A stretch of DNA of 38,521 nt, from positions 1-38,521 of the forward strand of contig CAIKAF010000008.1 in NCBI GenBank assembly GCA_903825395.1, given 5' to 3'. The DNA is from an uncultured Flavobacteriales bacterium. GTDB lineage: Bacteria > Bacteroidota > Bacteroidia > CAIKAF01. Of this stretch, positions 17,030 through 36,397 are shown piece after piece. Every line of letters starts with the position of its first letter. Positions within the stretch are counted from its first letter, which is position 1. Below the pieces are notes generated by a model. The model did not search any database. It was not told where the DNA came from and saw nothing but the letters and a program-made list of their open reading frames with translations. Made by a program: the position numbers and the translations under genes.

Positions 17030-17033
17030 TGTA

Positions 17034-17175
17034 GGGCGGCTTACGGGCTTTCACCGGTTGTCCGCGCTGCATGACCAATGGCCCAGCCGCTTTGCGCGGG
17101 CTCCCAAGGTCGCCTGCGCAGCTGGCGGGCCCTAGGCCATGCCGCTTGCGGGCAACCGCGTTCAATCCCTGCCGC
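17034..17175 (+). repeat. Structured 3'-UTR repeat, copy B
   Basis: Begins 5 nt after the kinase stop, in the same sense. Stems: 17055-17065 with 17148-17158 (CGGTTGTCCGC/GCGGGCAACCG, 11 bp with one G-U), 17069-17073 with 17138-17142 (GCATG/CATGC) extended towards GGCCC/GGGCC, and an inner stem GCGCGGGC/GCCTGCGC closing a loop. It has changed bases on both sides of the inner stem compared with copies C and D. It lies between convergent genes. Confidence 0.9.
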
Positions 17176-17197
17176 TCACCCCAAATCGGCCTGTTTT

Positions 17198-32488: not shown

Positions 32489-32688
32489 TCCCAAAGCAAA
32501 AAATATTTAAAGGTTAGGAGATTAAAGCGGTTTATACCTAAATTTAGTATGTTCTGCGAAGATACGGGTTCTAAAAAGAAATCGCAAGGGCAACCGCTCA
32601 TGTTTTTTTGTTTTTCTTTCAGATTTCTAGAATTGGGGGCAGAACGTTCAACGCCATGCGCTGCGGTTCTCCTTTCCCTGTGGCCCGC

Positions 32689-32830
32689 GGGCGGGATTGA
32701 AGAGGGTTGCCCGCAAGGGGGGCAGTGCCTGGCCCGCGTGGCGCGGAGGCGACTTTAGGAGCCACCGCAAGCCCGCTGGGCCAGCCACTGCCCACCGCGG
32801 ACAACCCCTGAAAGCCCGGTACCCGCCCCA
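32689..32830 (-). repeat. Structured 3'-UTR repeat, copy C
   Basis: In minus sense it starts 16 nt after the htrA stop. Stems: 32704-32714 with 32797-32807 (GGGTTGTCCGC/GCGGGCAACCC in gene sense, 11 bp, one G-U), 32721-32727 with 32786-32792 (GGCAGTG/CACTGCC), then TGGCCC/GGGCCA, and the inner GCGGTGGC/GCCTCCGC around UCCUAAAGUC. It separates htrA from rpoD. Confidence 0.9.
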
Positions 32831-32845
32831 CAATCTCCAGCTCAA

Positions 32846-36178: not shown

Positions 36179-36210
36179 GGGGCACAGGCTGTTGAGTGTA
36201 TTGGGGGTTT

Positions 36211-36353
36211 GGGCGGCTGCCGGGCTTTCAGGCTTTGTCCGCGGTGGCCGGAAGGCTGGCCCAGCGGGCTTGCGGTGGCTCCTAAAGTCGCCTCCGCGCC
36301 GCGCGGGCCAGGCTCCGGCCCCCTTGCGGGCAAAGCTCTTCAATCCCTGCCGC
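36211..36353 (+). repeat. Structured 3'-UTR repeat, copy D
   Basis: Starts about 32 nt after the mltG stop in the same sense. Stems: 36232-36242 with 36326-36336 (GCTTTGTCCGC/GCGGGCAAAGC, 11 bp, one G-U), 36246-36252 with 36314-36320 (GGCCGGA/TCCGGCC), TGGCCC/GGGCCA, and the inner GCGGTGGC/GCCTCCGC. Its core is nearly identical to copy C, but its two outer stems differ on both strands. Confidence 0.92.
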
Positions 36354-36397
36354 ATAAAAAACCGGCATCGAAGTCCAAACCGGCATAAGGCCTAAAT

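Follow-up and report, generated by a model that had tools for sequence, protein, structure and literature searches.

The window, i.e., the whole stretch of 38,521 nt analysed here, holds four copies of a repeat that occurs throughout its genome. We put the chance at about even that this repeat is a DNA hairpin of the Flavo-1 superfamily, scattered between genes, comparable to REP, BIME and ERIC sequences, and kept as a chromosomal site that is read by a protein. Comparative arguments suggest that the repeat acts at the level of folded DNA and not through an RNA.

The repeat family and its hairpin

The four elements noticed in the preliminary description were real, and their placement by a covariance model lay close to the positions first given (Table 1). 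Their strands had been left unstated, and the four copies aligned well once A and C were read on the minus strand and B and D on the plus strand. The model, named R1, was built from 42 copies of the window's genome and has 149 positions. In the 2.63-Mb genome (33 contigs) it found at least 150 full-length copies, far beyond chance. The listed copies scored 91-175 bits (E 1e-32 to 3e-15), all of them at full length. Because extra copies were found adjoining the fetched ones, the true genome total is above 150, and the density of the window, i.e., four in 38.5 kb, would imply approximately 270 copies per genome. The repeat unit is approximately 145-146 nt long. The copies sit between genes, have approximately 70% GC against 42-51% in the surrounding window, and share a mean pairwise identity of 75%.

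Table 1. Positions, in the window, of the four elements and of the hairpin parts of element D
Feature	Position	Strand	Pairing partner	Description	Basis
Element A	about 124-263 (R1: 121-266)	-		most diverged; outer 3' arm degraded	R1, 91.2 bits
Element B	17034-17175 (R1: 17031-17178)	+			R1, 139.7 bits
Element C	about 32687-32828 (R1: 32684-32831)	-			R1, 157.9 bits
Element D	36211-36353 (R1: 36208-36356)	+		imperfect hairpin of about 143 nt, GGGCGGC ... GCCGC	R1, 171 bits, model positions 1-149/149
D, outer stem	36213-36217	+	GCCGC, 36349-36353	GCGGC	sequence, 42-copy alignment
D, conserved lower stem, 5' arm	36232-36242	+	GCGGGCAAAGC, 36326-36336	GCTTTGTCCGC; includes the conserved block TTGTCCGC and a conserved T.G pair	sequence, 42-copy alignment
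D, variable stem, 5' arm	36246-36252	+	TCCGGCC, 36314-36320	GGCCGGA	sequence, covariation
D, conserved apical core	36274-36293	+		GGTGGCTCCTAAAGTCGCCT; the apex CY-AA-RG covaries	
D, conserved block	36325-36333	+		TGCGGGCAA; 3' arm of the lower stem	

Each copy is a single long imperfect hairpin, which is very stable whichever strand is folded. Folded as DNA, elements B, C and D were better than shuffled sequences, with z of -3.2 to -7.9 (-4.7 for D), and element A was weakly better (z -1.6). The stems that had been read by eye were present, e.g., the variable stem of D given in Table 1 and GCTTTG (36232-36237) with CAAAGC (36331-36336).

It had also been claimed that the partners change together while pairing is kept, and this was confirmed. 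Among the 42 copies, double-sided compensatory changes were found at 26 of the 49 consensus pairs. Covariation above the phylogenetic background was present in 108 copies, by a home-made, tree-aware equivalent standing in for R-scape, i.e., a G-test with APC whose null places the inferred substitutions anew on the tree. Fifteen column pairs were significant (E<0.05) against this tree-based null, and 13 or 14 of these belong to the helix. Columns 53/100, for example, were CG in 70 copies, GC in 26, TA in 6 and AT in 4. At the apex, a Y..R pair covaries over a two-base AA gap, being T..A in 57 copies and C..G in 45, and T..G or C..A never. With the apex columns left out of tree building, the tree requires at least 26 switches of apex type, compared with 33 for shuffled labels, so the copies may also have exchanged blocks. 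Some of the pair flips could likewise be mimicked by recombination that moves stem blocks from one copy to another.

Constraint in place and the question of mobility

The named relatives are metagenome-assembled genomes, the record names of which point to freshwater as the habitat of the host. In 24 pairs of orthologous copies between the window's genome (G000) and its closest relative, G003, the element diverged by 0.85%. At the same loci the adjoining 30 nt diverged by 6.1% on the 5' side and 4.2% on the 3' side, and the farther flanks by 3-5%. The boundary at the element edge was sharp. The copies are therefore constrained in place.

On a longer time scale, copies are gained and lost. Element D is identical in sequence in G003, whereas the orthologous sites of G001 and G005 have no copy of it. 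Element C is shared with G003 and is missing from its orthologous sites in the same two species, and element B occupies its orthologous site in four species of the genus, i.e., that of the window and three others. R1 matches are dense in the genus, at full score in G001, G003 and G005 and as diverged forms in G002 and G004. One other genus of the family has many copies (G014, 84 R1 matches), and elsewhere the matches are single weak ones. Because copies are present or absent between species, the repeat has probably been mobile in the past or moves slowly.

No polymorphic insertion was found between G000 and G003 in the 11 flanks tested, i.e., searching with the flanks alone showed the G003 site to be occupied at 10 of the 11 judgeable loci. 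At the eleventh, the G003 ortholog of the L024 copy (L168 approximately 1160-1260, G003:C146) lacks 54 internal bases between CTTGCGG repeats. Such a loss is typical of hairpin deletion, although an assembly error may also explain it.

The 5' flank of the copies is T-rich and C-poor, and the 3' flank is A/C-rich, with CTCA frequent. TTTT stands immediately upstream in 61/108 copies, compared with 10/108 farther out. In the search for target-site duplication, no direct repeat was clearly above shuffled flanks. Outer-flank pairing, which was seen by eye in several copies, was no better than with shuffled partners. Copy pairs less than 500 nt apart are always tail-to-tail, with the 3' ends facing, and this holds in other species too. 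Such pairs were seen at L072, L075, L078, L093, L101, L016, L102 and L126, and the likeness between the members of a pair was not clearly above average.

Possible carriers of the repeat were searched. The Y1/RAYT transposase domain (PF01797) was not found in G001 and G005, each of which has at least 77 copies, and RAYT was rejected as the mover because it is absent from these two copy-rich species. Three PF01797 matches were found in G000. One domain, in a RAYT-like Y1 ORF (L070 2303-2935, plus strand), lies approximately 570 nt from a copy, and another RAYT-like Y1 ORF (L063 3539-4093, minus strand) lies approximately 1.4 kb from a copy. Phage carriage was likewise rejected; four pattern matches were found in viral contigs and none was supported by R1, and in the two contigs inspected the matches fall inside ORFs.

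These results bear on the alternative of a non-autonomous mobile element of the MITE or REPIN kind, in which a putative enzyme would recognise the folded single strand and its needs would shape the covariation. Such an element would have the high copy number observed, would differ in presence between species, as C and D do, and could give the invariable tail-to-tail pairs; a T-rich insertion context without target duplication is as expected for single-strand insertion. However, a mobile element accords poorly with copies that are constrained in place and nearly all full length, with G000/G003 flanks that are filled at 10 of the 11 tested loci and show an internal deletion at the other, with the absence of the transposase from G001 and G005, and with the search for phage carriage, which found none. 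We consider it rather unlikely.

Folded RNA or folded DNA

The preliminary description had proposed a candidate structured RNA and, more broadly, selection on a folded RNA or single-stranded DNA. Strong constraint on a structured element stood, and single-stranded DNA is the better supported of the two; the RNA proposal was not supported, since the orientation is random to transcription, the transcribed strand has no wobble bias and G.T is not above A.C.

By simple ORF calling, the neighbour genes in element orientation were convergent at 41 copies, codirectional at 26 and 22, and divergent at 20. This arrangement roughly follows intergenic length, and as the two codirectional counts are 26 and 22, neither strand is preferentially transcribed. 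An intrinsic terminator was rejected as a candidate: the T-run is 5' of the hairpin and the 3' flank is A/C-rich, and on the other strand the run reads as A's.

Selection on a transcript would be expected to raise G.T over A.C in copies codirectional with their flanking genes, and the reverse otherwise. The GT:AC counts by transcribed strand were 24:23 in the ++ arrangement and 18:12 in the -- arrangement (p 0.49). In 42 Watson-Crick-dominated columns, 460 cells held an alternative Watson-Crick pair and only 22 held G.T and 40 A.C, whereas the RNase P RNA control from related genomes gave, by the same rule, 55 G.T and 7 A.C. The slight excess of A.C over G.T (p 0.03) may be read from these counts as a mild hint that wobble pairs are preferred on the minus strand, i.e., that of Flavo-1. 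The conserved T.G pair on one strand and the A.C-rich columns 45/108, which read as G.T on the complementary strand, are still compatible with single-strand preferences. A two-base hairpin loop is tolerated by DNA and strained for RNA.

As a structured RNA, the copies would be UTR hairpins acting from either strand, i.e., as RNase barriers or on the stability or processing of mRNA, or they would form an sRNA family. The high stability on both strands, the many copies that lie 5-60 nt beyond a stop codon, and the Rfam entry type of Flavo-1, an sRNA gene, agree with such an RNA. Weinberg et al. (2010; PMC2864571) listed Flavo-1 as a likely RNA with no cis-regulatory role. Against a transcript stand the random orientation, with 20 copies between divergent genes, the lack of wobble enrichment on the transcribed strand, and the covarying pair over a two-base loop. 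In the Flavobacterium psychrophilum transcriptome, too, Flavo-1 matches were indistinctly sense or antisense to transcribed regions, and many were outside them (PMC9723704). A structured RNA is thus distinctly unlikely.

A functionless palindrome maintained by quasipalindrome-templated correction in replication is very improbable: pair flips do outnumber one-sided changes, and wobble-type mismatches of either kind are rare, but correction would remove the conserved mismatches, bulges and T.G pair, which persist, and among the 24 ortholog pairs there were 0 double changes and the element divergence was lowered, not raised.

For the preferred reading, a DNA hairpin kept as a protein-read site, the following steps are proposed. 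The palindrome would fold as DNA, either on the single strand exposed in replication or, in supercoiled DNA, as a cruciform. A putative host DNA-binding protein would then read the conserved unpaired and mispaired bases together with the conserved base of the hairpin. The copies, having presumably spread in the past, would be kept as chromosomal sites for topology, the nucleoid or replication-repair.

Relation to Flavo-1 and to other known systems

The preliminary description knew of no matching family, and this held in part. At the gathering threshold, the window matched only 16S rRNA among known RNA families; element D had no match to RF01705 at E<=1, and the window copies are below the RF01705 gathering score of 42 bits. 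The motifs and the fold, however, match Flavo-1 on the opposite strand by way of L106, a 90-nt copy from another genus of the family. L106 matches RF01705 over the full model on the minus strand (30.1 bits) and R1 at full length on the plus strand (37.9 bits). Because this intermediate matches both models, the window family is linked to Flavo-1.

The two share the same base motifs on opposite strands (GATTGAAG...GCGGA / GCGGAAAGC), an A-run after the hairpin, a single hairpin with a variable upper stem, and many dispersed copies in Bacteroidota. They differ in that the window copies are approximately 146 nt long with approximately 70% GC and have their own core, GGCTCCYAARGTCGCC, whereas the RF01705 model has 76 nt and an AT-rich upper stem. 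As the copies of the window's genus are larger, GC-rich and below threshold, they are a variant of the Flavo-1 superfamily and fall outside the Rfam family in its present definition. The repeat is a large, previously undescribed relative of Flavo-1, i.e., a long GC-rich subfamily.

Of 40 relatives, 22 had RF01705 matches at E<=0.01, and in 8 of these the gathering score was exceeded. One genome had 35 matches, and none of 14 control genomes had any. The best match in the window's genome (27.6 bits) is a separate short form, L207 1501-1568 (G000:C25:2045-2112), which is Flavo-1-like with an extra small basal hairpin, GCCGG..CCGGC. It is conserved in G003 (L206), and the CCACCTCA motif then follows, as in the long copies. 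The Flavo-1 copies of G036 (L188, L210-L213 and L216, approximately 1501-1610 in each) have other palindromes in their apical loops. A repeat of the TTCGACAGGCTCAGCCTG type stands in several of these copies and one of the TTCGAGAACCTCAG type in copies of G024, i.e., the repeats are nested.

ERIC and REP/BIME sequences of enterobacteria are imperfect intergenic palindromes with tens to hundreds of copies, found in inverted pairs and with an orientation that is not bound to the strand. The likeness to them is one of kind, by description, and no sequence relation is claimed; enterobacteria belong to a different phylum. Integron attC sites resemble the repeat in that a single strand folds into a hairpin, the stem of which varies while its extrahelical bases are conserved. 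However, both terminal boxes (RYYYAAC ... GTTRRRY) were found in 0/110 copies on either strand, and the repeat is dispersed rather than set in cassette arrays; attC was thus rejected. REPINs with RAYT (PMC3116915) are likewise hairpin repeats paired in inverted orientation, but the repeat unit of the window is much longer, and RAYT is undetected in G001 and G005.

Flavo-1 has been listed since 2010 as an RNA of unexplained function. The present subfamily, which has at least 150 constrained copies per genome, lends comparisons strong power for choosing between RNA and DNA, and it points to DNA. We hold it as a tentative and somewhat unlikely proposal that Flavo-1 and its relatives are a Bacteroidota superfamily of DNA-structure sites that a dedicated putative protein reads in their folded DNA form, with a role in chromosome maintenance. 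If this is true, a family used in sRNA catalogues would be misfiled, and Bacteroidota would have their own chromosomal hairpin-site system, the binding protein of which could be searched for.
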